Source: Candidatus Methanosuratincola sp.
Lineage (GTDB): Archaea; Thermoproteota; Methanomethylicia; Methanomethylicales; Methanomethylicaceae
Direction: 5' to 3'
Assembly: GCA_037478935.1 (NCBI GenBank)
Contig: JBBFLR010000005.1
Coordinates: 1 to 64,000 of the forward strand
DNA: 64,000 nucleotides
The number at the start of each line of letters is the position of its first letter. The stretch's first letter is position 1. Positions 19,858-59,926 of this stretch are shown piece by piece. The position numbers were made by a program, and so were the translations under genes. Under the pieces are notes generated by a model. It was given only the letters and a program-made list of their open reading frames with translations. It had not been told where the DNA came from and searched no databases.

Positions 19858-20340
19858 TCACAGAGAGCCCTCCCCCTTCTCGAGCCTAACGGCATCCTCC
19901 AGGAAGCAACGGTGCCTCTCCTCATCCTCTGCGATGCTATCAAGCACCTTCTTTACTGCGCGGTCCTTATTTGCGAGGTCTAACGCCTTGGAATAGATCT
20001 CGACCAGGTACTCCTCGTTCATTAACTTCTCATAGCGAAAAAGGTCCTTCAGGATCTCTAGAGGTGGTTTCTTTCCTATGCTGCCCTCCGCCTCAATCAA
20101 GATCCTCCCAGCCTCAGCCGCCACAGGACCGATGTCTGCCTGAGGTGCACTCTCCGGGATTGCGGATCCCGAGAGCTGCCTAAATACCTCGCTGTGCTTT
20201 CTCGAGTCCATCGCAAGTATCGAGATCAGGAGCTTAGCCGTGCCGTTTTTTATCGAAGGCAGAATCCTCTCATAGACTTCCGCTGTCTTAAGTTCATAGA
20301 ATGCCAGAAAAGAGTATAGATTATCCAAAAGGCTCACCAA
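19858..20340 (-). CDS. Ferritin-like / rubrerythrin-type four-helix protein
   Basis: 160 residues, nearly all helical. Carboxylate/His motifs at the expected spacing for a di-iron site: 'ELKTAEVYERI', 'MDSRKHSEVF', 'NEEYLVEIYSKAL' and 'AEDEERHRCFLEDA'. It lacks the rubredoxin domain. Possible peroxide reduction or iron handling. TTG/GTG start at 20340 with a TATA-like CTATATTAG at 20361-20369, consistent with a leaderless transcript. Confidence 0.7.
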   Translation of the reverse strand: MVSLLDNLYSFLAFYELKTAEVYERILPSIKNGTAKLLISILAMDSRKHSEVFRQLSGSAIPESAPQADIGPVAAEAGRILIEAEGSIGKKPPLEILKDLFRYEKLMNEEYLVEIYSKALDLANKDRAVKKVLDSIAEDEERHRCFLEDAVRLEKGEGSL

Positions 20341-20821
20341 CTATACTTATACTAAATGCTCTAATATAGACAGCGAAAGTGGTGCCTGACTATCGGTAAT
20401 GGCATTCAGATCGATCTTTGAAAGACATGTAACTTTGCAAGACGTCTTAGGACCAGTTCTCGCCATGTAGGAGACTTTTTCCCATTAATATTCTCCTTTC
20501 TTAGTTCTTCAAGTCTCTGACCTTATTCTTCTGCCTTTAACTAGTTGACATGATAAACGTCAATTATAATTGTAAATATTGTTAAGGGGCGAACCCGAGA
20601 GTGGACTCAAATCCTCGAACACGCTCTTTTAGATCTCTCATCACTCCTGTTTTTACTCCGGTCCGCAACCCCCGTGTCTTAATTAAGTTGGATCATAAGG
20701 GATTTTAAGGTATTGCACGGCTAGGCGAAGCCCTTAGAACGTCATGGGTATTGATCGGATGTTGAGGAGAACTGCCTCTTTGTGGCAGAATGATTTGTCG
20801 GATATCGATCGATCAGAATCC
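20341..20821. other. Non-coding, AT-richer intergenic stretch
   Basis: No convincing gene on either strand over about 480 bases. Visible elements: the promoter of the ferritin-like gene (20361-20369), a TTGAC/GTCAA inverted repeat (20545-20562) running into the perfect 12-base palindrome CAATTATAATTG (20561-20572), and a CTGCC/GGCAG hairpin (20772-20788) just beyond the HAD gene's stop. I could not fold a tRNA or recognise an sRNA here. Confidence 0.5.
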
Positions 20822-21574
20822 TCAAGAGCGTCCTTGAGCTTGGAAATCGAATGCACGCGACTGGGTAGCCAGGCTTTCTTTCAGGCCCGAATGAAGATCA
20901 GCCTCGCTTGCATTCAACTCTAACAAGTTCAATACCTCCATCGGGCTACACAGGAAGAAATCGGGTGTTTCATCCCTTGCCTCAAAGAAGTTACAGTCCC
21001 CATACCTTGCGTAGGCGGCCTTCATGCCTATCCGCTTCGCTGCCTTCACATCCCGCTGTATGCTGTCGCCTACAAAAAGCGCCTCTTCAGCTCTGACGCC
21101 CAGGAGGTTCAATGCCACTTCTAGGTGCCGGGGGTCTGGCTTCACAGATTCGGTGTCGTCCGCGGTCACCAGCACATCAAAGTACTCCCTGAGTCCTGCC
21201 CTTTCCAGCCTGATGACTGCATTCGCTCTCCTGGCATTCGTGACCAGGGCGGTTTTTACTCCCATTATCTTCAGTGTTGCGAGCATCGTCTCAACCCCAT
21301 CATAAGGTCGAATCAGCTCAAGCTTGGTAAGGTCGTAGATCTCGCAGCACTCGAAGTAGAGGTCGAAATCATATACGCCGATGCTTGCCATGTAATCCGC
21401 GATCACCGAGTGGCTCTCATACTGTCCGTGGCTCCTGATGAATAGGTTCAGGAGATCCACCCCGTTTCCATTCCCTAGCCTCGATGCTACCGCCCTGCAG
21501 GCACCGACCTGGGCGTAGACGAAATCCATAAGTGTGTTGTCCATGTCAAAGAGGACTGCCTTTACCGCGCTCAA
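20822..21574 (-). CDS. HAD-superfamily hydrolase, third gene of CARF-PIN operon
   Basis: 250 residues. HAD motif I FDMDNTL (Asp10, Asp12), motif II in VTNARR, motif III Lys in VKPDPRHLEVAL and motif IV GDSIQRDVKAAKR are all present; the cap is of the helical C1 type. General phosphatase of the haloacid dehalogenase family, substrate unknown. TTG start overlaps the upstream PIN gene's stop by 4 bases, so it is co-translated with it. In context it could act on a nucleotide or RNA end (inference). Confidence 0.85.
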   Translation of the reverse strand: MSAVKAVLFDMDNTLMDFVYAQVGACRAVASRLGNGNGVDLLNLFIRSHGQYESHSVIADYMASIGVYDFDLYFECCEIYDLTKLELIRPYDGVETMLATLKIMGVKTALVTNARRANAVIRLERAGLREYFDVLVTADDTESVKPDPRHLEVALNLLGVRAEEALFVGDSIQRDVKAAKRIGMKAAYARYGDCNFFEARDETPDFFLCSPMEVLNLLELNASEADLHSGLKESLATQSRAFDFQAQGRS

Positions 21575-55065: not shown

Positions 55066-55351
55066 TCGGTCTCGACCGAGACCTTGATAGGAAGGGATAT
55101 AAATCTTGCTAAAATTGAGTTATAATTTTTATTACCTGTGCCATGGCAATGAAGAAATGCCATGATGAGCTAATGGTGTGTATCAGAATGACGGTGCATC
55201 TCATAAGGATGAAAAACTGCAGACTTATATAATTTAATTTAAAATAGATTAATAGATAAAAATATAAGTCTCTACTTCCAATATTTAACTGGAATAAGTA
55301 TTTATAGGTGGAATAATTATTAAAAAAATAATTTATATTTATTTTGTTCTT
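55066..55351. other. AT-rich intergenic stretch at the left edge of a foreign-looking island
   Basis: Composition drops sharply from GC-rich to strongly AT-rich near 55100. Holds promoter-like runs (TATTTAAC near 55281, GTATTTATAGG near 55298) and a GGTGGA ribosome-binding-like site (55307-55312). After that site the reading frame of the Cys-rich precursor continues back from 55352 through Lys-Lys and hydrophobic codons to ATA/ATT codons at 55313-55319. Confidence 0.5.
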
Positions 55352-55972
55352 ATGATTATTTTAACAGGGATTTTTGTAAATTTAGTGATCACTTCGCCTG
55401 TTTCAAGTGAGTTGATGGATCCCGAAAACCAAAGAAGTGCCGTGAGAGTGAATGATTTTGTTAGTCAGTCGAGCAATAGATTGAGTGGTGAAGCTCTAAG
55501 CCAGGCAGTGGATAAAGTGCTGTCCGATCCAGAAGTCCTTATTTTGATAGATTATTTAATTCAACAAAACTTCACACTTCAATCTGATAACCCCTCTGGT
55601 TTGAGAACTAATGAAGGTTTTAAAATCAGAATGCGATTCAAAACCAATGATGGCACCAATACATGCCGTGATGGAGCCTTCATAATTTATTCTGAAACAT
55701 CAGGTGAGAAACAAGCTATTGCTATATGGTCAAAAGATGGTCAAGGGTACATGCGTGGATCAAACAATTTAACCATCTCAAGCGGTTGTTATGCGTGTTT
55801 GTGCAATTATGAAATTTGGTGTTGTGAATCATGCGGCTCATTCTGGTTACCTCCTTGTGGTGCATTTCCATGTAATTGTTATGTAATGGATTGTGCGAAT
55901 CCATTCTTCTTAATTTGTTGGTATGGATGTATGGATGGGCAATGTGCTGCCTGTCAGGGGTGTCCATGTTGA
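55352..55972 (+). CDS. Putative secreted precursor with 16-Cys C-terminal tail (bacteriocin-like layout)
   Basis: 206 residues from the first ATG. The N-terminus is hydrophobic (signal peptide); extending the frame upstream adds IIKKIIYIYFVL, which would make a fuller signal sequence but needs an ATT/ATA start. A polar middle part (residues 20-140) with one Cys follows. Residues 146-206 contain 16 Cys (GCYACLC, WCCESC, FPCNC, CQGCPC and others). Halocin C8 precursors share this order of signal, immunity-like middle part and Cys-rich peptide tail, but similarity of sequence is limited to a GCxAC start, so the match is only structural. AT-rich, unlike flanking genes. Translationally coupled (ATGTTGA) to a membrane protein. 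Confidence 0.7.
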   Translation: MIILTGIFVNLVITSPVSSELMDPENQRSAVRVNDFVSQSSNRLSGEALSQAVDKVLSDPEVLILIDYLIQQNFTLQSDNPSGLRTNEGFKIRMRFKTNDGTNTCRDGAFIIYSETSGEKQAIAIWSKDGQGYMRGSNNLTISSGCYACLCNYEIWCCESCGSFWLPPCGAFPCNCYVMDCANPFFLICWYGCMDGQCAACQGCPC

Positions 55973-56748
55973 AAAACATCGAGAGAAATTATTGGGGAAG
56001 ATTGGGCGGCTTCTTTAACATTAAAAAATACTTACTAATTACGATAGTTATTGGTTTAACATTTATCGCTTTAAACCAATATTCTATTTTATTTGTTTTG
56101 CTAGATATAGAACTAAGTTATTTGTCGCTTTGGATGTTTTTCTATGCATTCATTGTTGGCATTGCCTTGGTGATCGTGGGCTTAACTTTGTACAGTATGA
56201 AATACATGGTTAATATTCAATATTTCAAGTCTTTATTATTAATTAGCCTTATTATGTTGACAATTAGCGTTTTCGGGAATGTTTTGATAAACCTATCAAG
56301 AGTGCTTAAAATTGCCTATTTGCACTTGCCAGATTCACTTCTTATATCAATTTTAGCAAGAAGTTGGTGGCTTCCAGAAATTATTTGGTTGGTGGGGTTT
56401 GCTGGATGGCTCATTCTGTTTTCCGCCAACAGAATTAGGCCAATGGGCTTCAGCGATTCAAATTTGCTACGCGTGGCATTTAATGCCTTGGGCATTGGAG
56501 CAGCCATCGTCTTGATATTCTCGATGTTCAGGATTGTATTGCCTTATCTTTCGCCTGAAATGATAGTCTTCCTTTATTCTCCCCTACAATACCTATATGC
56601 GCTGATTTACCCTCTCGGCGAGGTTTTGCTCTTCTTTGGATGGGCTGTATTGAGTACAGCATTCTTTCAAAAACCAAAATTCATCATACTGATGATTTAC
56701 TTGATTTTTATAACCGTCAGTGCGATTGTACTACTGATGCCCATTTAA
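55966..56748 (+). CDS. Multi-pass membrane protein coupled to the Cys-rich precursor
   Basis: 260 residues from ATG 55966, which overlaps the precursor's stop by 7 bases (the frame is open further upstream inside the precursor gene). About seven membrane helices with few charged residues: 'YLLITIVIGLTFIAL', 'WMFFYAFIVGIALVIVGLTL', 'LLLISLIMLTISVFGNVL' and others. No motif I recognise. AT-rich codon use like the precursor, unlike the rest of the window. Could be an immunity, export or processing partner (inference from coupling). Confidence 0.75.
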   Translation: MLKNIERNYWGRLGGFFNIKKYLLITIVIGLTFIALNQYSILFVLLDIELSYLSLWMFFYAFIVGIALVIVGLTLYSMKYMVNIQYFKSLLLISLIMLTISVFGNVLINLSRVLKIAYLHLPDSLLISILARSWWLPEIIWLVGFAGWLILFSANRIRPMGFSDSNLLRVAFNALGIGAAIVLIFSMFRIVLPYLSPEMIVFLYSPLQYLYALIYPLGEVLLFFGWAVLSTAFFQKPKFIILMIYLIFITVSAIVLLMPI

Positions 56749-56826
56749 GAGCACAATTAAGGAAAAAAGACAGGCGACCTATCGTTTCGCCTTCAATAAA
56801 TCACTAAATAAAGAACAGGATGGTTC

Positions 56827-57684
56827 TTACTGCAGCATGATCCTCTTCCCAGCACACCCCAGCTCCACTGATTCGCCGAGCTTCACACGCATGTGGCAGA
56901 CTGCCTCGAGACCTGTGCAGTGGCACGGCACCACCTTCTTCACCCCAATCTCCTTGAGTGCCGCTGCTGTCATCCCGATCTTCTCCTCTCCTGCGTCGTT
57001 GAGGTGGAAGCCGCCTATTACTGCGAAGACCTCCTTGATCCCCGTGATCTCTTTCGCGTGGTTCACAGTGTTGATCACCCCGGAGTGGGCGCAGCCCGTC
57101 ACGACCACCAGCCCCTTTCCTTCTACCGCGGCAACAATACCAATGTCGTCCCTGAAGCTGTCCTTCTCGATCCCGTCCCCCCTGCCTATGAAGAACTCGG
57201 TCTCTGGGCGCTCGAACGACTCCCTGCCTATCTCCCCGGTCGTGATGAGCCAGTCCTTGACCTGCTGCGGGGATCCCGAGGCTATTACCGAAACCCCTGC
57301 CGCCTCCAAGATCTTTGGGTCGAAGGGCATCCCTATCCTGACCAGGTTCCCCCTAACCCTCTTGAACCTTGGGAGGAATGCGTCGCTGTGCGTGATGACT
57401 CTCGAGGGCGCACAGCCAGACTCGATCAGCCTTGGCAGCCCCCCGGAGTGGTCGTAGTGTCCGTGGCTCAGAACCACATCCTCAACCCTCCCAAGCTTCA
57501 AAGCCTTCATGTTGTTGATCAGCGGCACCCCTGTTTGCCCTGTGTCGAAGAGTACCCCTTCGCCACCGTGCCGGATCAGCGCGGAGAACCCGTGCTCCCC
57601 CAGCATTCCCCTTGCGGCGGGCGAGACCGCGTTGTCGCAGAGTATCGTGATCTCCAGCCCGTCGATCACCCTCAAGCTAGCCAA
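56827..57684 (-). CDS. MBL-fold hydrolase, dihydropterin-ribofuranosyl-aminobenzene-phosphate synthase-like
   Basis: 285 residues. Metal motif LSHGHYDHSGG, 'VVTGCAHSGVINTV' and the C-terminal 'VVPCHCTGLEAV' are typical of the COG1237 family that includes the archaeal MJ0301 enzyme of methanopterin-type cofactor synthesis. Many members act otherwise, so exact function is open. Confidence 0.8.
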   Translation of the reverse strand: MASLRVIDGLEITILCDNAVSPAARGMLGEHGFSALIRHGGEGVLFDTGQTGVPLINNMKALKLGRVEDVVLSHGHYDHSGGLPRLIESGCAPSRVITHSDAFLPRFKRVRGNLVRIGMPFDPKILEAAGVSVIASGSPQQVKDWLITTGEIGRESFERPETEFFIGRGDGIEKDSFRDDIGIVAAVEGKGLVVVTGCAHSGVINTVNHAKEITGIKEVFAVIGGFHLNDAGEEKIGMTAAALKEIGVKKVVPCHCTGLEAVCHMRVKLGESVELGCAGKRIMLQ

Positions 57685-58450: not shown

Positions 58451-59866
58451 TTATCTGCCCCTGAGATGGATCCCGCGCAGGCGCATCGACGGCCCTCCAG
58501 TCCAGACGGGAACCCCCTGCTCGGGCTGTCCCTTGCCGCACGTGGCTGCCCTGAATATCAAGTCCCTTCCGACCGCGTCGATGCTCGAGAATATCACCTC
58601 AGTCGTCGCCTCTATCACGGGCGCCCTGACCGGATCTCTGACCTCGCCTCCTTCGATCATGTATGCCTCCAAGCCCACGTACCTGTTGTTCCACCTGATG
58701 TCGTCGATGTTCCACTCCTGAAAGCTCTTGATGTACACGCCCCTTTCCACTCCCTCGATCATCTCCTCCAGCGTGTGGTCGCCCGGCTCCATGAACGTGT
58801 TCGACATCCTCACGATCGGCTCCCTTGCGTAGGACGATGCCCGCATTGCGGCGTTGCTCGACATCCCGAAGTCGTGGGCTGTCTCCCTGCTGTGCAGGAA
58901 CTCATTCACTCTTCCTTCCCTGATCAGCGCTTTTCTCCTGGCGGGGACCCCCTCGTCGTCGTAGAGGTAGAAGCCGTATGACGTAGGGAGTGTCGGGTCG
59001 TCCGAGATGTTCACCACATCGCTCCCGATCTTCCTGCCGAGCATTCTTGGCTTCAAATATGACTCGCCCGCCTGGGCGGCTTCCCTGCCCATGATCCTGT
59101 CAGCCTCCTGGGGGTGTCCGCAAGCTTCGTGGGATATTATGCCCGTGACCTCCCCTCCGACCACGATGTCGTACTTCCCTGGGGCAAGCGCTTTCCCCTC
59201 CTTCAGCATCCTCGCCATGGCTTCTGCCTCCTCCCTCGCGACCCTCTCAGGGGCTATGGCGCCTGCCCTCTCCCAACCTCCGGATTCGCCGAGCTGGACT
59301 ATCCTTTGGAGTGACCCCTTGCCGCCCTCGTAGGCAGTGATTATGAAGTAACCTGCGACCCTCGGCACCAGCGACCTCAGCTCGGTGCCCTCGGAGTTGA
59401 CGTACTCCTTCTCCTCAACGCTCCCCCCGAAGACAAGGAGCCTGTTGGGGAATTCCACCCCTTTGACCCCCACAATCGAGGCGTCGACCGCCTTGAGGAG
59501 ATCGATGACCTCGCCCGGATCCACGGACGTCGGGAGAACCCTGTGATCTGCCTTCCATCCAGCCCTCGCCGGCTTCTCGCTCGAAAGGACTACCTTCTTG
59601 CAGGATCCGGCCATCGCCTTCGCGGATCTCACCGCCCTCGATCCCGCCTCGATCATCCCCTCGCGGGTGAGTATGTTCGTCGAGGCAAAGCCTAGAGCCC
59701 CGTCGACGATCGCCCTCACGGCGATCCCATGGGCCTCAACGTACTCGGGGGGCTCAGCCGCCCCGTTCTTGAGCACGACTTCCATCCCGGAGTTCCTCTG
59801 GGACCTGACCTCGGCGTACCCTGCCCCTTCCCTGATCAGGTAATCAAGCAGCCACTGGAGATCCAT
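58451..59866 (-). CDS. tldD: TldD-type metalloprotease
   Basis: 471 residues from ATG 59866 (GTG 59878 possible). The zinc motif HEACGH (in SHEACGHPQEADRI) marks it as TldD rather than TldE/PmbA, which lacks it. 'AHGIAVRAIVDGALGFAST' in the N-terminal domain is family-typical. Acts with TldE as a peptide-degrading or modified-peptide-processing protease; no tldE gene is in the window. Confidence 0.9.
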   Translation of the reverse strand: MDLQWLLDYLIREGAGYAEVRSQRNSGMEVVLKNGAAEPPEYVEAHGIAVRAIVDGALGFASTNILTREGMIEAGSRAVRSAKAMAGSCKKVVLSSEKPARAGWKADHRVLPTSVDPGEVIDLLKAVDASIVGVKGVEFPNRLLVFGGSVEEKEYVNSEGTELRSLVPRVAGYFIITAYEGGKGSLQRIVQLGESGGWERAGAIAPERVAREEAEAMARMLKEGKALAPGKYDIVVGGEVTGIISHEACGHPQEADRIMGREAAQAGESYLKPRMLGRKIGSDVVNISDDPTLPTSYGFYLYDDEGVPARRKALIREGRVNEFLHSRETAHDFGMSSNAAMRASSYAREPIVRMSNTFMEPGDHTLEEMIEGVERGVYIKSFQEWNIDDIRWNNRYVGLEAYMIEGGEVRDPVRAPVIEATTEVIFSSIDAVGRDLIFRAATCGKGQPEQGVPVWTGGPSMRLRGIHLRGR

Positions 59867-59926
59867 GGCAAACACCACTTCAGCGCGTAAGACAGCGACG
59901 CATCCGATCTCTTTCGGAACGCAATA

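Follow-up and report, generated by a model that had tools for sequence, protein, structure and literature searches.

Almost all of the antimicrobial peptides known to us from archaea come from haloarchaea. The halocin C8 system consists of a secreted precursor from which a C-terminal 76-amino-acid peptide, HalC8, is released (PMC12893001, PMC11509114); the precursor is Tat-exported, and immunity comes from its own HalI part (PMC11509114). Here, we examined a 64-kb stretch of DNA (the window) from Candidatus Methanosuratincola that carries a gene of comparable layout, predicted to encode a signal, a middle part, and a Cys-rich C-terminal peptide, together with an overlapping gene for a membrane protein. 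The contig bearing this AT-rich island is 107.7 kb long and belongs to an archaeal genome of 1.52 Mb that is 96.5% complete. The genus Methanosuratincola (Methanomethylicales/Methanosuratincolales, Thermoproteota) comprises methyl-reducing methanogens. Its type species, M. petrocarbonis, is in culture; it grows at 35 to 65°C, with an optimum of 55°C, and its genome has a GC content of 54.4% (PMC12244365).

Maximum-likelihood change points delimited the longest and deepest low-GC stretch of the window at positions 55085 to 56830 (GC = 35.8%, compared to 56.9% outside). The GC3 of the two island genes is 0.32 and 0.43 versus 0.65 to 0.82 in adjoining genes. An earlier reading made without database searches (the sequence-only reading) had pointed to a sharp GC drop against both flanks and to unusual codon use, and these measurements bear out both. 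The second-lowest GC stretch of the window (positions 20101 to 20951; minimum 41%) is partly intergenic and lies between a ferritin-like and a HAD-hydrolase-like open reading frame (ORF), both named by eye. The island is flanked on the left by a gene for an NCS1-family permease (Pfam PF02133) and on the right by one for an MBL-fold hydrolase (PF00753), whose closest named relatives are Candidatus Methanosuratincola and Methanomethylicales metagenome-assembled genomes (81 to 88% protein identity). These two genes adjoin in four congeners. The gap between the matched flank stretches is 1,761 bp in the island genome and 208, 127, 314, and 74 bp in congeners G015, G014, G011, and G013, respectively. 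By BLASTN, congener DNA homology ends at positions 55124 to 55132, just behind the permease promoter, and restarts at 56827 to 56839, where the MBL-fold gene ends; island-like DNA was absent from all seven congener genomes searched. Because the flanking genes adjoin in four congeners and no congener has the island, we conclude that about 1.70 kb of DNA was inserted here (Table 1). A mis-binned contig is an unlikely origin, since both flanks match congeners at 80 to 85%.

In the congeners, the same intergenic slot holds unrelated, partly AT-rich sequence of 74 to 314 bp (38 to 50% GC in three of them; 38% in G011), a pattern suggestive of recurrent gain and loss at this site. Remnants of the two island genes were not found in these variable slots, and no paralogue of either gene was found. 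The empty site in four congeners, the absence of a paralogue, and the foreign composition support acquisition of the island by lateral transfer, as the sequence-only reading had thought probable. Genes in the neighborhood encode an ABC transporter, the NCS1 permease, the MBL-fold protein, LysE, TldD, and isochorismatase; a radical-SAM maturase, as in Cys-based RiPPs (sactipeptides and SCIFF), was not found among them. TldD/E relatives mature some bacteriocins. The TldD-type metallopeptidase gene (PF19289; positions 58454 to 59878) is 1.6 kb away from the island, with two genes in between and a native GC content; we claim no link to the island.

Table 1. Features of the island, in window coordinates
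Feature	Position	Strand	Basis
Inserted AT-rich island, between NCS1 permease promoter and 3′ end of MBL-fold gene	55125..56838	.	BLASTN and GC change points
Perfect 10-bp inverted repeat, AGACTTATAT...ATATAAGTCT	55221..55271	.	Sequence only
Putative ribosome binding site AGGTGG and, 7 nt on, noncanonical ATT start (55319)	55306..55321	+	Read from sequence, inferred
Secreted precursor: hydrophobic signal, middle region, Cys-rich tail	55319..55972	+	Predicted from sequence
Cys-rich tail C157-C217 (ATT numbering): 61 residues, 16 Cys, 3 Trp, net negative	55787..55969	+	
Seven-transmembrane (TM) protein, 260 amino acids, start overlapping 3′ end of precursor gene	55966..56748	+	ORF and hydropathy

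The island contains two genes on the + strand, that of the precursor followed by that of the membrane protein. Their stop-to-stop frames span 224 and 290 codons and are not attributable to chance, because only 1 of 1,000 dinucleotide shuffles of the island had any frame of 206 codons or more. A 29-codon ORF (MAMKKCHDELMVCIRMTVHLIRMKNCRLI; positions 55143 to 55232) sits at the island's left edge, 5′ of the promoter, with no evidence for gene status. The precursor has 206 amino acids when read from the ATG at position 55352 to the TGA ending at 55972, and its frame is open upstream to an ATT that would give 217 amino acids. The stretch that encodes the extension, IKKIIYIYFVL, contains no ATG, GTG, or TTG, so that the ATT is a presumed start. 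The true precursor is probably the 217-residue product with a classical Sec-type signal: its N terminus combines KK, a single hydrophobic stretch, and SPVSS in the manner of a textbook signal sequence, whereas the ATG-started ORF lacks a positively charged N terminus. The signal peptide proposed in the sequence-only reading is therefore convincing only with the noncanonical start. The count of 16 Cys in the 61-residue tail given in that reading proved exact, and this density is extreme: across the window's 207 open frames of 100 codons or more, the next densest stretch has 10 Cys in 61 residues. The tail contains three CxC, four CxxC, and CC motifs, and Trp, Phe, and Tyr are abundant in it.

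The gene for the membrane protein begins within the end of the precursor gene (overlap ATGTTGA, 7 nt; ATG at 55966). Hydropathy analysis gave exactly seven TM segments, preceded by a positively charged N terminus, so that both the overlapping gene pair and the seven-helix protein described from sequence stand. AlphaFold2 models were obtained for both proteins without an alignment; they are poor (pLDDT of 36 for the precursor, which is useless, and 60 for the membrane protein, with helices only) and therefore could not separate the explanations considered below. Upstream of the precursor gene, the right arm of the inverted repeat overlaps an archaeal TATA-like box (AAAAATATAAG; positions 55257 to 55267). 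The repeat pattern, which was taken from the site itself, is unique within the window and did not arise in any of 100 shuffles. The repeat flanks and overlaps the presumed TATA box and may be an operator.

To search for relatives, we compared both proteins with family, structure, and genome collections. Neither matched Pfam or NCBIfam at E ≤ 1, including the full 260-residue membrane protein against Pfam; PHROGs and PADLOC gave no match of note for either, and the PDB gave no significant match. About 400 genomes of the phylum (398 for the precursor) contained no homologue of either protein, and in IMG/VR and plasmids there was no homologue of the precursor and nothing convincing for the membrane protein. 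Homologues of the precursor were likewise not found in its own order, in contigs of 84,980 species, in phages, or in 215 genomes of a Clostridia-related phylum. Searches for the membrane protein covered the phylum genomes, IMG/VR, and plasmids, and those for the precursor also the species contigs and phages. The contig scans depend on exact seeds of 8 residues, so that distant relatives would escape them; the phylum search is more sensitive. The best of the weak precursor matches were rejected as noise: one was an unrelated cytoplasmic protein beside an FAD-dependent oxidoreductase, and ten others were stop-interrupted frames or common housekeeping genes. Both island proteins are thus without detectable relatives in the searched collections, and the pair is present in a single species. 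The sequence-only reading had named as contrary findings an intracellular metal-binding homologue, or homologues lacking the membrane gene and the signal peptide; neither was encountered, because no homologues were found at all. We conclude that the insertion is genuine and confined to one species, and that one of its two orphan genes encodes a striking, Cys-rich product that is probably secreted.

The explanation that we prefer, at somewhat less than an even chance, is a laterally acquired archaeocin-like locus encoding a secreted Cys-rich effector and a seven-TM immunity (or export/processing) partner. The first gene would yield a Sec-exported precursor, whose tail, after export, would be released by proteolysis or stay attached. 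Folding through about 8 disulfides would make the tail a compact, heat-stable, hydrophobic peptide active against the membranes of competitors. Protection of the producer would fall to the translationally coupled seven-TM protein, for which a role in export or processing of the peptide is less likely. The empty site in congeners argues for a dispensable cassette inserted as a unit, and the gene overlap argues for coproduction of the precursor and the membrane protein. Consistent with the archaeocin-like reading are the foreign composition, the signal-like N terminus, the concentration of Cys at the very C terminus, the halocin-C8-domain loci with the same gene order, the origin of HalC8 likewise as a C-terminal fragment, and a borderline resemblance of the first Cys block to Haloferax precursors. 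Against it, neither protein has a homologue by sequence among known antimicrobial or immunity proteins, the partner has seven TM segments versus one or two beside halocin C8 genes, the island contains no dedicated ABC exporter or protease, and a strict anaerobe is not an obvious setting for 8 disulfides. In addition, the search for the same pair elsewhere returned none, leaving the pairing without evolutionary comparison. The bolder proposal that the pair represents a new, single-member family of ribosomal archaeal antimicrobial peptides, with about 8 disulfides and a 7-TM immunity protein in a minimal two-gene cassette of a Thermoproteota methanogen, is doubtful. If true, the archaeocin-like reading would make competition among methyl-reducing methanogens testable, in a genus with a cultured member, and would add a heat-stable, disulfide-rich scaffold.

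An unlikely alternative, which nevertheless survives better than the others, is that the precursor is a structural or metal-binding protein, either secreted or on the cell surface, whose anchor, transporter, or assembly factor would be the seven-TM protein; it would have been acquired to cope with metal or sulfide stress in oil fields or hot springs. The CxC, CxxC, and CC motifs of the tail and the persistence of free thiols in an anaerobic setting fit this role, and the sole phmmer match of the membrane protein is the mercury transporter MerF, a nonsignificant match (E = 0.059) that covers generic TM sequence. Metallothioneins, however, are not rich in Trp, Phe, and Tyr as the tail is, the precursor has a secretion signal, and neither Pfam nor NCBIfam nor, at a significant level, the PDB linked it to metallothioneins or intracellular metal-binding proteins. 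Less probable still is a scheme in which the effector is the same but the seven-TM protein serves as its exporter, protease, or maturation factor, and immunity lies in the middle part of the precursor, as in halocin C8, where immunity sits in the precursor itself as HalI (PMC11509114). By eye, the middle part does open with a stretch resembling a helix-loop-helix, a feature also described for HalI, but it shows no significant similarity to the few and divergent haloarchaeal halocin precursors compared (pairwise P = 0.14 to 0.65; hidden Markov model [HMM] not significant). Its best value, P = 0.02, was against one phylum member among four comparisons. The membrane protein, moreover, matched no known peptidase or transporter family.

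We give slightly less credence to cargo or a remnant of a virus or mobile element, such as virion, lysis, or superinfection-exclusion genes. The clean, small insertion of foreign composition with orphan proteins fits such an element, but no transposase or integrase accounts for the insertion, the window has no tRNA, no RNA family was found to explain it, and the borders lack convincing terminal repeats or transposon ends; PHROGs gave no match of note, and IMG/VR held no relative. Least probable is a signaling pair, with the secreted Cys-rich peptide as cell-cell signal and the seven-TM protein as receptor or modulator. The gene overlap, the 7 TM segments with their positively charged N terminus, and the possible operator favor it. 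Against it, the membrane protein bears no kinase or other output domain and none lies nearby, the pair is restricted to a single species, and the fold search was nonsignificant (best E = 1.7, on a low-confidence model).

Two other known systems share features with the locus. Five tail Cys have the spacing of the knottin-type albumin PA1b (PDB 1p8b; x3, x7, x4, x1) in a short, ungapped match, which is a lead only: the E value is 8, the sixth Cys is out of register, and PA1b-like spacing arises in 2.6% of shuffled tails. SdpC/SdpB/SdpI sporulation-delaying-protein systems combine a secreted precursor with polytopic membrane partners, the SdpC peptide having two Cys. The island pair likewise joins a secreted precursor to a polytopic membrane partner, but it has no third gene and no match to these families.

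In a profile search, the precursor tail did not match the halocin C8 family TIGR04449 (membership threshold, C-terminal domain >24 bits) at E ≤ 1. The island genome itself yielded no member, nor did 301 genomes from the phylum to which an Anaerolineales relative belongs. Members above the cutoff were present in 4 of 398 phylum genomes, all of one family. At the five Thermoproteota loci fetched, a precursor with a Cys-rich tail is followed directly by a 2-TM membrane gene, and on plasmids of Haloferax larsenii and Halobacterium salinarum a small 1-TM gene begins about 20 to 25 nt after the precursor; the order of Cys-tail precursor and then membrane gene is therefore common to the island and the fetched loci. 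The Thermoproteota precursors, two of them from one genome, have no obvious signal sequence, and four of the five 2-TM partners share a similar C-terminal part; these loci apparently constitute a diversified archaeal halocin-C8-domain family outside the haloarchaea. In composition-keeping shuffles, pairwise similarity of the island tail was borderline for the Haloferax lucentense precursor (P = 0.04) and two other members (P = 0.06 and 0.05), in contrast to HalC8 itself (P = 0.38; HalC8 sequence entered by hand) and two phylum TIGR04449 members (P = 0.76 to 0.85). The score of the tail against an HMM of three haloarchaeal tails was reached by 23 of 1,000 shuffles. The borderline likeness to Haloferax precursors is confined to the first Cys block, SGCYAC......C...CGSF (GCYAC...C...CGxF). 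HalC8 carries a Tat signal, whereas the N terminus here (IKKIIYIYFVLMIILTGIFVNLVI) is Sec-like and without twin arginine, and 16 Cys in 61 residues compare with about 10 in 76 in halocin C8, at different spacing. Membership fails on present evidence because of the missing TIGR04449 match and Tat signal and the different Cys number and spacing, in agreement with the sequence-only judgment that the locus was not a clear member; the middle part showed no significant similarity to the few and divergent members compared. The halocin C8-type layout recognized in the same reading holds, the phylum's TIGR04449 precursors also having a membrane gene directly downstream, and in its construction, and perhaps in its mode of action, the island pair resembles a halocin C8 locus.
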